Origin: Rhodopseudomonas boonkerdii
GTDB taxonomy: Bacteria; Pseudomonadota; Alphaproteobacteria; Rhizobiales; Xanthobacteraceae
Direction of reading: 5' to 3'
Assembly (NCBI RefSeq): GCF_021184025.1
Contig: NZ_CP036537.1
Location: 4,030,001-4,094,000, forward strand
Length of the DNA: 64,000 nucleotides
Positions within the stretch are counted from its first letter, which is position 1, and each line of letters starts with the position of its first letter. Of the stretch, positions 41,343 through 46,177 are shown piece by piece. The notes beneath the pieces are model-generated. The model was not told the origin of the DNA, searched no databases, and saw nothing but the letters and a program-made list of their open reading frames with translations. The position numbers and the translations under genes are program-made.

Positions 41343-42329
41343 TCAAGCACCAATTGCCTTGGCATACAGCTCGGCATCGACATTGCCGCCGGAGAGCACG
41401 ATCACCACCGTCTTCCCGCGCGCGTCGATCTTGCCTTTCAGCAGCGCCGCCAGCGCTACGGCGCCACCGGGCTCAACCACCAGCTTCAATTCGTTGAACG
41501 CGAAGGCCATTGCTTCCATCACTTCCTGATCGGTGGCGCTGACGGCGCCGGCGAGCAGGTGCCTGTTGACGGCAAAGGTGATGTCGCCGGGCTGCTGCGC
41601 CATCAGGGCGTCGCAGATGGTGCGGCCACTATTGCCATGGGCAACGGGCTTGCCCGCTTTGAGCGAGAGTTCGTGGTCGTGATATCCAGCGGGCTCGGCG
41701 ACAAGGATCGCTGCGCCGGCAAACCGCGCCTTCACGGCGACCGCGATGCCGCCGATCAAGCCGCCGCCGGAGGCCTGCGCCGAAACAATATCCGGCATCA
41801 CAGCAAGCGCCGCCAGATCCTCGGCGATCTCGCGGCCCACAGTGCCCTGCCCGGCCATCACAAATACATCGTCATAGGGCGGCACCACGGTGGCACCGCT
41901 GTCGCCGGAGATTTTTCGCGCAATGGCTTCGCGATCCTCCTTGTCGCGATCATAGAGGACGACCTCTGCACCGTAGCCGCGTGTGCGCGCCACCTTCATC
42001 ACCGGGGCGTCGGACGGCATCACAATGGTCGCCTTCATGCCGAGAATCTGCGCCGCGGCGGCCACCCCCTGGGCATGATTGCCGGACGAGAAGGCGACGA
42101 CGCCCTTGCCGCGCTCGTCCTGCGGGATTGACGACAGCTTGTTGAACGCACCGCGGAATTTGAACGAGCCGGTCCGCTGCAGCACTTCCGGTTTGACGAA
42201 GATGCGCCCGCCCGTCAGCGCATCGAGCGCGGGTGACGGCAGCAACGGCGTGCGCACTGCATAGGGCGCAATGACCCGGGCGGCGGCATCGATATCGGCG
42301 GCGGAGATTGGGAGAGCTGTGTTTGTCAT
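41343..42329 (-). CDS. PLP-dependent threonine/serine dehydratase-like enzyme
   Basis: 328 residues, fold type II. K57 in GSFKFRGA binds pyridoxal phosphate; SSGNHAQGVA is the substrate loop and SGGGLIGG the phosphate loop. The regulatory ACT domain of biosynthetic IlvA is absent, so a catabolic threonine dehydratase, serine racemase or hydroxyaspartate dehydratase is likely. Confidence 0.87.
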   Translation of the reverse strand: MTNTALPISAADIDAAARVIAPYAVRTPLLPSPALDALTGGRIFVKPEVLQRTGSFKFRGAFNKLSSIPQDERGKGVVAFSSGNHAQGVAAAAQILGMKATIVMPSDAPVMKVARTRGYGAEVVLYDRDKEDREAIARKISGDSGATVVPPYDDVFVMAGQGTVGREIAEDLAALAVMPDIVSAQASGGGLIGGIAVAVKARFAGAAILVAEPAGYHDHELSLKAGKPVAHGNSGRTICDALMAQQPGDITFAVNRHLLAGAVSATDQEVMEAMAFAFNELKLVVEPGGAVALAALLKGKIDARGKTVVIVLSGGNVDAELYAKAIGA

Positions 42330-42377
42330 ACCCGCATGCTAGGCGCGCGAGGCATTGCCGACAAGGGCAAGCGACGC

Positions 42378-43427
42378 TCAGGCGACGACGGGCGGACTTC
42401 CCGTTACGGGCTTGACCTTAAGATGCAGCTCGGCACGCGCCTGGGTGATATTGCCGACAAAAGCGCGCGCCGAGGCTTCCCAAGTATGGTCAGCAGCGAA
42501 ATCGAGACATGCCTGCCGCTCAATCCGCAGCGCCTGCACACAGGCTGCCTGCAAGTCGTCCGAAAGCACGCCCACGGGCGCCGAGCCGATCACATCCTTG
42601 GGTCCCGTCACCGGCAGGGCCGCCACCGGCACGCCGCTGGCAAGCGCTTCCAGCAACACAAGACCGTAAGTATCGGTCTTGCTCGGGAATACGAACACAT
42701 CGGCACCGGAATAGACCCGCGCCAGTTGTTCCCCTTGCAGGGCACCGAGAAACACCGCGTTCGGATATTTCGTCTGCAGTTCCCCGCGCGCCGGACCGTC
42801 GCCGACGACGACCTTGGTGCCCGGTAGATCGAGCGACAGGAAAGCGTCGAGGTTCTTTTCGACGGCGACGCGCCCGACCGAGAGGAATACCGGCTTCTCA
42901 TAACCGAGATCGGCATCGCGCGGACGGAACAGATGACCATCGACGCCACGCGGCCACAGCACGACATTCTTGAAACCGCGCTCGCGCAGTTCATCGGCCA
43001 GTGCCGGTGTTGCCGCCATCACCGCAGAACTGGCGCCATGAAACCAGCGCAGGCCGGCCCAGACCCACGCCTCGGGAATCGGGAAGCGCGCGGAGACATA
43101 TTCCGGAAAACGCGTGTGGAAGCTCGTGGTGAAAGGAATGCTGCGACGGCGGCAATAAGAACGCGCAGCAAAGCCGATCGGCCCTTCCGTGGCAATATGG
43201 ATATTGTCCGGTTTTGCTGCTTCGATCATCTGCGCAATGCGACGGCGACGCGGAATGGCGACACGAAGATCGCGATAGCTGGGCAGACCGAAGGTGCGAA
43301 ACGTCTCTGGCGTGAGAAAGCTTACCTCAACGCCGAATGTCTTGGCGGCCTCGGCCATCATGGTCAGCGTGCGCACGACTCCGTTGACTTGCGGATGCCA
43401 GGCGTCGGTCGCGACCAGGATGCGCAT
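42378..43427 (-). CDS. agt: Glycosyltransferase family 4, probable diacylglycerol glycosyltransferase
   Basis: 349 residues, GT-B fold. The donor-site signature EX7E is in FPSKTDTYGLVLLEALASG; SVGRVAVEKNLDAFL and VVGDGPARGEL are typical of GT4. The start overlaps the plcP stop by one base (TGATG), so translation is coupled. In Agrobacterium the equivalent gene (agt) next to a plcP-type gene makes glucosyl- and glucuronosyl-diacylglycerol during phosphate starvation. Assignment here rests on family plus neighbours. Confidence 0.72.
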   Translation of the reverse strand: MRILVATDAWHPQVNGVVRTLTMMAEAAKTFGVEVSFLTPETFRTFGLPSYRDLRVAIPRRRRIAQMIEAAKPDNIHIATEGPIGFAARSYCRRRSIPFTTSFHTRFPEYVSARFPIPEAWVWAGLRWFHGASSAVMAATPALADELRERGFKNVVLWPRGVDGHLFRPRDADLGYEKPVFLSVGRVAVEKNLDAFLSLDLPGTKVVVGDGPARGELQTKYPNAVFLGALQGEQLARVYSGADVFVFPSKTDTYGLVLLEALASGVPVAALPVTGPKDVIGSAPVGVLSDDLQAACVQALRIERQACLDFAADHTWEASARAFVGNITQARAELHLKVKPVTGSPPVVA

Positions 43428-44224
43428 CAAGCGGCCTTTGCAGGAGCGAGCGTTCGCACCGGTTCGTCTTTCTTGGCGACATCGGTCCAGGTGAGGATCT
43501 CGAAACGTCCGTCCTCATGCTCGACCAACGCCGTGCAGCTCTCGACCCAGTCGCCGCAGTTCATATAGCGGATGCCATGCTCGTCGCGAATGGTGGCGTA
43601 GTGGATGTGACCGCAGATCACGCCGTCGGCACCGTGGCGGCGCGCTTCGCCGGCCAGCGTCTCCTCGAAGGCGCCGATATAGTTCACCGCGTTCTTCACC
43701 TTCATCTTGGCCCATTTCGACAGCGACCAGTAGGGGAAGCCGAACAGGCGGCGGAACATATTGACCAGGCGGTTCATTTGGATCGCGAAGTCGTAGGCCT
43801 TGTCGCCGAGATGAGCGAGCCACCGAGCGTTCTGCACCACGAGATCGAAGATGTCGCCATGGATGACAAGATATTTCTTGCCGTCCACGCCCTCATGCAT
43901 CGCCGTCTCGACGACTTCGATGCCGCCAAAATGCGTGCCGTAATAGTTACGCAGGAACTCGTCATGATTGCCGGGAATGTAGACGACCTTGGCGCCCTTG
44001 CGGACCTTGCGCAGCATCTTCTGAACGAAGTCGTTATGCGACTGGGGCCAGTGCCAGCCCGATTTCAGCGCCCAGCCATCCACGATGTCGCCGACCAGAT
44101 AGATCGTATCGGCATCGTGAACGCGGAGGAAATCCAGCAGCTTTTCAGCCTGCGAGCCCCGCGCGCCGAGATGAACGTCGGAGATGAACAAGGTGCGAAA
44201 GCGGTGTTCGTTGCCTTCACTCAT
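43427..44224 (-). CDS. plcP: PlcP-type metallophosphoesterase (phospholipase C, LpxH-like)
   Basis: 265 residues. Metal ligands of the calcineurin fold: D16 and H18 (SDVHLG), D46 (GDIVDG), N86-H87 (GNHDEF), H122 (IHGDIFD) and H206/H208 (GHIHYA). Often annotated as UDP-2,3-diacylglucosamine hydrolase, but the rhizobial members such as Sinorhizobium PlcP split phosphatidylcholine to diacylglycerol when phosphate is low. The ATG at 44224 follows GGAAAGA. Neighbours pmtA and agt support the PlcP reading. Confidence 0.72.
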   Translation of the reverse strand: MSEGNEHRFRTLFISDVHLGARGSQAEKLLDFLRVHDADTIYLVGDIVDGWALKSGWHWPQSHNDFVQKMLRKVRKGAKVVYIPGNHDEFLRNYYGTHFGGIEVVETAMHEGVDGKKYLVIHGDIFDLVVQNARWLAHLGDKAYDFAIQMNRLVNMFRRLFGFPYWSLSKWAKMKVKNAVNYIGAFEETLAGEARRHGADGVICGHIHYATIRDEHGIRYMNCGDWVESCTALVEHEDGRFEILTWTDVAKKDEPVRTLAPAKAA

Positions 44225-44261
44225 CGCGTATCTTTCCATGTCAGGCGGCTAGCAAAGTTGC

Positions 44262-44279
44262 ATGACCGAACGATGACGT
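44262..44279 (-). promoter_or_regulatory. Candidate Pho box for plcP-agt
   Basis: On the minus strand ACGTCAT-CGTT-CGGTCAT matches the rhizobial PhoB box CTGTCAT-N4-CTGTCAT at 11 of 14 positions with the exact 4-nt spacer. It starts at the last base of the pmtA stop codon and lies 37 nt before the plcP start. Confidence 0.5.
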
Positions 44280-44938
44280 CAGGCCGCCAGCGCCGGAGCG
44301 GTTCTCTCAAATGTCACAAGCGTATAGATGCCGAACGGCCGCAGCTTGCGGCGCTCGACGAGAATGCTGTCGGCATTCGCCTGCGACCACGCCTGCAGCC
44401 GCGCAAACGGGAACTCCGGGCGCAGGCCGAGCGAGCGGGTCTTCTCCGCCGCCCAGCGCTCCAGCGCCGCGGCCCAGCCGGTTTCTGAATACAGATGATT
44501 GACGAGGATGATGCGCCCGCCCGGCTTCACCACGCGGTGGCATTCGGATAGCACCTGTTCGGGATTCTCCACGAGCGTGATAACAAATTGCGCCACAACG
44601 CAGTCGAACGTGGCGTCCGCGAAATCCATCGCATGGGCGTCCATCTGGCGCACGTCCTTGACCCACGGAAACCGCCCGGAGGCCATCTTGGCGCGAGCTT
44701 TAGCGAGCATCGGCTCGGACAGATCGATCCCGGTAACTTCAGTGCTCCGGTCGTAATCCTCGAACGAGAGTCCGGTACCAACGCCGACTTCAAGCACCTT
44801 GCCGCCGACGGCGCGCGCGGCTTCTGCGGCGGCGCGTCTCCCCTTGAGCATCACCGGCCCGCAGACGGCATCGTAGATCGGGGCCCAGCGGGCATAGGCC
44901 GTTTCAACAATGGATTTTTCCAGATCCAGCGTCGTCAT
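44279..44938 (-). CDS. pmtA: Phosphatidylethanolamine N-methyltransferase PmtA
   Basis: 219 residues, class I SAM methyltransferase. The SAM motif is EVGVGTGLS (50-58) with VTGIDLSEPMLAKAR next. The N-terminus ETAYARWAPIYDAVCGPVM and the overall size match the rhizobial/Rhodobacter PmtA type, which methylates phosphatidylethanolamine three times to phosphatidylcholine at the membrane. It is upstream of plcP and agt on the same strand with a 54-nt gap. Confidence 0.85.
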   Translation of the reverse strand: MTTLDLEKSIVETAYARWAPIYDAVCGPVMLKGRRAAAEAARAVGGKVLEVGVGTGLSFEDYDRSTEVTGIDLSEPMLAKARAKMASGRFPWVKDVRQMDAHAMDFADATFDCVVAQFVITLVENPEQVLSECHRVVKPGGRIILVNHLYSETGWAAALERWAAEKTRSLGLRPEFPFARLQAWSQANADSILVERRKLRPFGIYTLVTFERTAPALAA

Positions 44939-45059
44939 CGATGGTTCCGTCCAGCGTGTCCAATGGAATCGGACAACTCATGTGCTGTTCGGCTGATATC
45001 AAGGCGGGATGACAGATCGACGACAGAGTGTCGCAGCAGCTGTGGGAACTATACTCCGT

Positions 45060-45170
45060 CCTCATCCTCAGGAGTCGCGTAGCGGCGTCTCGAAGGATGG
45101 CGGCAAAGCCGGAGCCTAACCAACTCATGGTTCGAGACGTGCGCAAGTGCGCGCTCCTCACCATAAGGGC
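45060..45170. repeat. Dispersed CCTCATCCTCAGGAG-type repeat, copy 1
   Basis: CTCATCCTCAGGAG...TCTCGAAGGATGG followed by TCATGGTTCGAGACG. A frequent intergenic family in Bradyrhizobium and relatives; a second member lies at 47185-47290. Confidence 0.65.
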
Positions 45171-45184
45171 GGTGGAGTAGCGTT

Positions 45185-45985
45185 TCAGTAGTACTTGTGG
45201 AAATGGTGCACCGGTCCATGTCCGTGGCCGACAGTGAATTTGTCGGCCGCGGCGATCGCGGCGGTGACATAGGCCTTGGCGGATCGTACCGCGGTTTCCA
45301 TGTCCTCGCCCTTGGCCAGGCTCGCCGCGATGGCCGATGACAGCGTACAGCCCGTGCCGTGCGTGTTCTTGGTGACGACGCGACGCGCCGGCAGTGCCGC
45401 CGTCCCCTTGCCGGTGACGAAGAAATCCGTGCTTTCCGGTCCGTCACCGTGCCCGCCCTTGATCAGCACGGCCTTGCAGCCAAGCTCAAGCAACCGCTTG
45501 CCCTGCGCCTCTATCTCGGCCTCGCTCTTCGCCGTCGGCTCATCGAGCAATGCGGCAGCTTCGGGCAGATTTGGCGTGATGATATCGGCGCAGGGGATCA
45601 ACACCTTGCGCAGCGCATCGATGGCATCGGGCACCAGCAGGCGATCGCCTGAGGTCGCCACCATCACCGGATCCAGCACCACATGTTTTGGCTTCCATTT
45701 CACGAGGCTAGCGGCGATCGCCTTGATGACGTCGCGCTGTGCCACCATGCCGATCTTCACCGCGCCCACCGCCAGATCGACGAACACCGCGTCGATCTGG
45801 TCGCTGACAAATGCCGCCGGCACCTGATGGATGCCGGTCACGCCTTTTGTGTTCTGCGAGGTCAGCGCCGAGATGGCCGAGGCGCCATAAACGCCGAGCG
45901 CGGCGAACGTCTTCAAATCTGCCTGGATTCCCGCTCCGCCCGAGGAATCGGAGCCGGCAATGGTCAGGGCAACGGGCGTTGGCAT
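45185..45985 (-). CDS. thiD: Hydroxymethylpyrimidine/phosphomethylpyrimidine kinase ThiD
   Basis: 266 residues. [24 protein letters not shown] (11-34) and the anion hole [10 protein letters not shown] with C213 are ThiD signatures. It phosphorylates HMP and HMP-P in thiamine synthesis. A GTG at 45997 is a possible earlier start. The C-terminal [13 protein letters not shown] is an unusual His-rich tail. No thiamine riboswitch was seen upstream. Confidence 0.95.
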
Positions 45986-46177
45986 CGAAAAACTCACGTC
46001 AAATCAAGCGGGAAGCAGCTTCACAGTGGTACTCCACCGCCGCCGGGCCGGCAACCGCATGGCCTGGGCCGCTTTGGCCCCCTACGAAATGCTCGATGCG
46101 CCAAACTGTCCTGCGCCCGTGCATGGCGAAGCGGCGTGCAATGCGATACGGTCGCCAAAAATCAGGAGGAGACAAAA

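Follow-up and report, generated by a model that had tools for sequence, protein, structure and literature searches.

Pairs of plcP and agt genes have been described in marine bacteria (PMC4796936), Methylosinus (PMC9239053) and Pseudomonas (PMC8528852), and the accessible text of two of these reports already places a Pho box upstream of the pair (PMC4796936, PMC8528852). In Sinorhizobium, the PlcP protein is described as regulated by PhoB and degrading phosphatidylcholine (PC), and the accessible text of the same study reports that both pmtA and plcP are raised under predation (PMC10315480). Among the phospholipid N-methyltransferases (Pmts), the R-type and S-type enzymes are treated as different groups (PMC12139422, accessible part), and PmtX1 of Bradyrhizobium is reported to use MMPE (PMC8590670, PMC12139422, accessible parts). 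Why it is specifically PC that supplies the diacylglycerol in Agrobacterium has been called unclear in the accessible part of a review (PMC3972451). A dedicated Pmt tied to plcP-agt, with Pmts of two unrelated kinds involved, would offer a direct genetic test of PC as the obligate donor, and would also make PC synthesis part of the phosphate response.

The pmtA, plcP and agt genes of Rhodopseudomonas boonkerdii

The window, a stretch of 64,000 nucleotides from the genome of Rhodopseudomonas boonkerdii (contig NZ_CP036537.1), carries three neighboring genes on its minus strand, and their enzyme families and positions are those proposed in the initial annotation. By homology, pmtA (44938..44279, 219 aa) encodes a cassette-specific Rhodobacter-type (R-type) phospholipid N-methyltransferase, plcP (44224..43427, 265 aa) a calcineurin-like phospholipase C, and agt (43427..42378, 349 aa) a GT4 diacylglycerol glycosyltransferase. 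The first ATG of plcP would give a protein of 270 aa (44239..43427), but translation probably starts at the second one, 44224, because the start aligns there in many relatives and a GGAAAG motif lies directly ahead. The TGATG overlap between plcP and agt is present at 43429..43425. On the same strand, thiD (45997..45185) lies upstream, and an IlvA-like dehydratase gene (42329..41343) follows 48 bp past agt. An IlvA-like gene comes next after agt in 69 of the 82 loci where agt follows plcP, and no functional link was seen. No classical sigma-70 promoters were found across 42250-45250.

The PmtA protein matches the R-type enzyme RtPmtA (PDB 8ys9) over residues 8-212 (E=2.8e-38), and scores 108.9 bits against the Legionella PmtA equivalog, below its cut-off of 390. 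A further R-type Pmt, with 45% identity, is encoded elsewhere in the same genome beside an mnmA-like gene. Such other R-type copies (38-52% identity) occur in all 30 genomes examined, 15 of which also contain a PmtA of the cassette type (at least 65%). In a tree, the cassette PmtA is separated from the remaining R-type copies with weak support (80/79), and five BtaB sequences form a separate clade (100/100) with long branches, outside of which PmtA falls. Judged by sequence, PmtA is thus a second, cassette-specific R-type phospholipid N-methyltransferase, distinct from BtaB and from the other copy in the genome. An identity as BtaB was rejected on its position outside that clade and on the location of btaA (G000:C1:4411649), which is not in the cassette. 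In this genome, btaA is arranged head to head with a btaB candidate, away from plcP (L094 3144-5229), in a 9 kb stretch where no Pho box of 12/14 was found. Among 120 listed of 4115 matches, the source names of close PmtA homologues include Rhodopseudomonas palustris, Afipia and Bradyrhizobium prioriisuperbiae. Cassette-type PmtA is thereby placed, by name, in R. palustris, and since a protein of strain TIE-1 shares 97% identity with the cassette PmtA of locus L033, the cassette type is available in a laboratory organism.

The PlcP protein belongs to PF00149 (51.1 bits, cut-off 21.5), its metal-site motifs DxH, GDxxD, GNHD, HGD and GHxH are invariant across 19 aligned proteins, and it is 61-68% identical to the plcP products of named Rhizobium, Mesorhizobium and Agrobacterium loci, which makes it a candidate orthologue of rhizobial PlcP. 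Since all nine of its PDB matches are LpxH, the UDP-2,3-diacylglucosamine hydrolase (best E 1.8e-06), a role of this metallophosphoesterase in lipid A synthesis was also considered. Its scores against the LpxH families are nevertheless far under the cut-offs (TIGR01854, 52.5 bits versus 190.35; NF003743, 50.5 versus 134), the genome already has LpxI, the protein reads GNHD where aligned LpxH reads GNRD, and both agt and a Pho box lie next door, all of which makes LpxH an extremely improbable identity. The Agt protein combines the PF13439 and PF13692 domains of GT4 enzymes. In one Agrobacterium genome a single protein matches it at E<=1e-30, with 53% identity over ~330 aa (E=3.7e-118).

Promoter-like repeats ahead of plcP and pmtA

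The Pho box that the initial annotation had located right after the pmtA stop, ACGTCATCGTTCGGTCAT (hereafter P2; 44279..44262, minus strand), is there with exact spacing and 11/14 matching positions. Its first base is the final base of the pmtA stop codon, and a -10-like TAGCCG (44251..44246, minus strand) lies ten bases downstream. Across the window, allowing up to 3 mismatches yields three box matches versus 4.18 expected from shuffles, so the P2 match by itself proves nothing; it is within chance, and becomes credible only through conservation. For the relatives we scored a box of 14 positions, three of which each allow two letters (Pho scoring). A box of at least 12/14 precedes plcP in 22 of the 40 loci with pmtA upstream (shuffle mean 0.04) and in 17 of the 67 loci without it (shuffle mean 0.22), while the control regions ahead of agt (0/82) and ahead of ilvA (0/81) show none. 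Three loci with pmtA upstream (L008, L020 and L062) have a perfect 14/14 box, and at a threshold of at least 11/14 the box is found in only 54 of the 107 annotated loci. The dinucleotide TA occurs exactly ten bases downstream, at the expected -10 place, in 38 of these 54 loci (background TA frequency 0.026), and in 26 of the 28 that also have pmtA upstream. Both the position of P2 and its -10 are kept in many relatives.

A second repeat, overlooked in the initial annotation, lies 70 bp 5′ of pmtA. This element, CTGTCGTCGATCTGTCAT (P1; 45026..45009, minus strand), has a single mismatch to the PhoB-type consensus CTGTCAT-N4-CTGTCAT (13/14), and a -10-like TATCAG (44998..44993, minus strand) follows exactly ten bases downstream. 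In the whole genome of 5.63 Mb, only 10 sites, P1 included, come within 1 mismatch of STGTCATNNNNSTGTCAY (reversed control, 4), and several of the ten are probably due to chance. Among the remaining sites, one is found 75 bp upstream of a gene for a PstS-like binding protein and one 57 bp upstream of a polyphosphate kinase gene, companions that favor the reading of the cassette as a Pho operon. A further one of the ten, a perfect Pho box (G000:C1:3820111-3820128), is seen 144 bp ahead of the gene for an 828-aa PAS-GGDEF-EAL protein (L085 2482-4968).

For the relatives we used a relaxed rule, set after inspecting the loci, which asks for PhoB geometry with TGTCR half-sites. By this rule, 38 of 39 loci, the own one among them, carry the P1 repeat ahead of pmtA (by weight, 11 of 12 genera), versus a shuffle mean of 0.12 and empty control regions (0/81 and 0/82); these counts omit L024, whose contig ends inside pmtA. 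A TA dinucleotide is placed ten bases downstream of the best site in all 39. The half-site is CTGTCGY in most genera and, by Pho scoring, P1 reaches at least 12/14 in just 8 of the 39 loci, so P1 may be either a variant PhoB site or the site of another PhoB-family regulator. A large regulon of the CTGTCGY type was rejected, as 81 matches versus 78 in the reversed control (up to 1 mismatch) amount to no enrichment. Combining the CTGTCGY pattern with the -10 leaves 5 matches across 10 genomes, of which 4 lie at pmtA, and the control yields no match, the pattern having been drawn from these same loci. ChvI was discarded as the P1 regulator on the published ChvI motifs, which in the accessible sources are unlike the P1 repeat.

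These observations bear on the proposal of the initial annotation that PhoB would raise only plcP and agt. According to such a split arrangement, only these two genes would answer PhoB, through P2, and pmtA would be constitutive or otherwise regulated. The half-sites fit this idea to some extent, as P2 is of the CTGTCAT type wherever it is present, while P1 is mostly CTGTCGY and seldom scores 12/14. However, a repeat with PhoB spacing and its own -10 stands ahead of pmtA in nearly every locus, P1 equals or beats P2 in the genus of the window, and six loci of the Rhodopseudomonas palustris group (g28, so assigned from the 96-97% PmtA identity of two loci) have no detectable P2. In those six loci neither P1 nor P2 reaches 11/14 by Pho scoring, the pmtA-side repeat scoring 9-10/14. 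Exclusive control of plcP and agt by PhoB is thus not supported, and we consider the split arrangement rather improbable.

The pmtA leader contains a hairpin of two helices (44992..44947, minus strand), whose 3′ arm adjoins the probable Shine-Dalgarno sequence. Compensatory changes occur in 9 of 39 leaders, from two genera and picked for their shared shape, and much of this covariation is a single split between the two genera. Over all 39 leaders of the family, hairpins are no stronger than in shuffles (median z 0.34). A SAM or other riboswitch was rejected, with no credible match in Rfam (best E 1.3). In 36 of the 39 loci, the 60 nt preceding pmtA contain the motif GATTC.

Linkage of pmt and plcP genes in relatives and in further assemblies

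That a PC-making gene is linked to a PC-splitting pair, as put forward in the initial annotation, is borne out across the family. At a threshold of E<=1e-75, cassette-type PmtA was found in 51 of 149 genomes, and in 49 of the 51 it sits in a plcP cassette; this figure counts as linked G059, where a contig end splits pmtA and leaves its 3′ part just ahead of plcP. In 48 of the 51, pmtA and plcP share strand and contig and lie no more than 1.2 kb apart, and in 47 the gap is below 300 bases. Among the special cases, the PmtA of G135 (54% identity) is unlinked to plcP, no plcP was found in G148 (58% complete), the plcP of G004 is partial at a contig end, and in G033 agt lies between the two genes. 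The annotated loci represent 107 of the 129 genomes with a PlcP match, and pmtA lies upstream of plcP in 40 of the 107 and downstream in 7. The 80 named loci, the top-ranking ones among 584 confirmed matches, also include nine Bradyrhizobium loci with the order thiD-plcP-agt-ilvA and two Nitrobacter loci with thiD-plcP(-agt). No Pmt was found alongside in any of these eleven, which indicates that the pathway can do without an adjoining Pmt. A second pair of Agt-like and Pmt-like genes (46% and 43%) occurs ~3.6 kb upstream of the cassette in one locus (L044 1-885).

The genome of R. boonkerdii holds a paralogue of plcP (PlcP2, 62%; G000:C1:5578428) in a second cassette (L070 4878-7223; G000:C1 ~5578.4-5580.7 kb), where an S-type Pmt and a DedA/VTT protein accompany PlcP2, itself extended at the N terminus, with a divergent response regulator and a histidine kinase. 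This Sinorhizobium-type (S-type) Pmt matches PDB 9ko3 (E=6.1e-22), and scores 101 bits against PLipidMtase_Agro, under the cut-off of 250. The trio of S-type pmt, dedA and plcP2 was found in 8 of the 12 plcP-paralogue loci examined, from eight genomes of six genera, with two-component genes nearby in all eight and an Agt added in six, the own copy being without it. The four loci lacking the trio comprise one plcP-agt, two near btaA-btaB, and one without such neighbors. No box of at least 12/14 was seen in the 11 kb around the own copy of this second cassette. A third assembly occurs in an alphaproteobacterial MAG (L214 2304-5346), where phoB (351 bits, cut-off 296) is followed in one run by an S-type-like methyltransferase gene, plcP and agt. 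As R-type and S-type Pmts are treated as different groups, the association of Pmt with plcP probably arose at least twice.

The lipid acted on by PmtA might, alternatively, be another aminolipid that is made when phosphate is scarce, for example ornithine lipid or the precursor of a betaine lipid. The enzyme of the third assembly leaves room for this, scoring 83.5 bits for PmtA and 82.5 for OlsG, the ornithine-lipid methyltransferase, both under their cut-offs, and BtaA is present in the genome of R. boonkerdii. Nonetheless, the window protein matches the R-type PmtA 8ys9, BtaB forms its own clade and has a candidate beside btaA, and the Pmt of the second cassette scores 101 bits for PmtA versus 49 for OlsG. 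We regard this alternative as decidedly improbable.

Possible role of the methyltransferase and comparison with known systems

Taking together the gene families, their linkage, the conserved promoter geometry and the repeated association of the genes, the cassette appears to be a phosphate-starvation lipid-remodeling operon of the plcP-agt kind that has acquired an R-type Pmt of its own, a reading that we consider fairly probable, if slightly less so in view of the few P1 repeats that score 12/14. That plcP-agt belongs to a Pho-linked pair, as initially suggested, agrees with the Pho box published upstream of such pairs (accessible parts of PMC4796936, PMC8528852). Under low phosphate, PhoB would bind P1 ahead of pmtA and also P2 ahead of plcP, with a strength that may vary between genera, both the binding and the direction of regulation being predictions. 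The expected activity of PmtA is to methylate PE or MMPE towards PC; PlcP would then split a methylated or zwitterionic phospholipid into diacylglycerol and the phospho-head group, and Agt would transfer glucose or glucuronate onto the diacylglycerol, giving a glycolipid. As for the putative flow of substrate, PmtA could either feed PlcP with its preferred substrate or hold PC steady as phospholipid shrinks, and we favor the first option since plcP is found linked to two kinds of Pmt gene.

A more daring extension, to which we give only tentative credit, is that methylation would be a committed step of lipid turnover in phosphate starvation, by which PE becomes PC, or MMPE/DMPE, and thereby cleavable by PlcP. 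Bacteria could then have assembled this chain of methylation, cleavage and glycosylation on at least two occasions and perhaps on a third: once around an R-type Pmt, once around an S-type Pmt accompanied by DedA and the N-terminally extended PlcP next to another two-component system, and, as the possible third, around the S-type-like enzyme beside phoB.

The main rival explanation is PC homeostasis, where pmtA would uphold the bilayer-stabilizing PC while PlcP drains the phospholipids, without feeding PlcP. In the accessible text of the corresponding reports, an agt mutant of Agrobacterium strongly loses PC (PMC3972451), and in Sinorhizobium ExoS/ChvI becomes active when PC is absent (PMC8343143), both in keeping with homeostasis. 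However, the other R-type Pmt found in every one of the 30 genomes examined would make a plcP-tied copy needless for basal PC, and homeostasis alone leaves the tight linkage of pmtA and plcP unexplained. We therefore see this rival as unlikely, though worth serious attention, and feeding of PlcP by PmtA is still the option that we favor.

Compared with known systems, the plcP-agt operons of marine bacteria (type 2), Methylosinus and Pseudomonas share with the window the gene order and the diacylglycerol-to-glycolipid logic, and the marine and Pseudomonas examples share its reported Pho box. The accessible text of these descriptions names no methyltransferase, whereas the window has pmtA ahead of plcP, with a promoter-like repeat of its own. 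In the type 1 plcP-btaAB clusters (e.g., L153 and L154) there is a SAM methyltransferase near plcP, BtaB, but this enzyme acts with BtaA on betaine lipid, and the window cassette has no btaA. Among the R-type enzymes, RtPmtA (8ys9) is of the same family as the window PmtA by sequence, and PmtX1 of Bradyrhizobium is grouped with it by published description; the window enzyme differs from known R-type Pmts as a second paralogue tied to plcP. No description of a pmt-plcP operon was found in the accessible text of the open-access literature. The plcP-agt pair is thus a known one, and what looks new is that a lipid methyltransferase repeatedly accompanies it.
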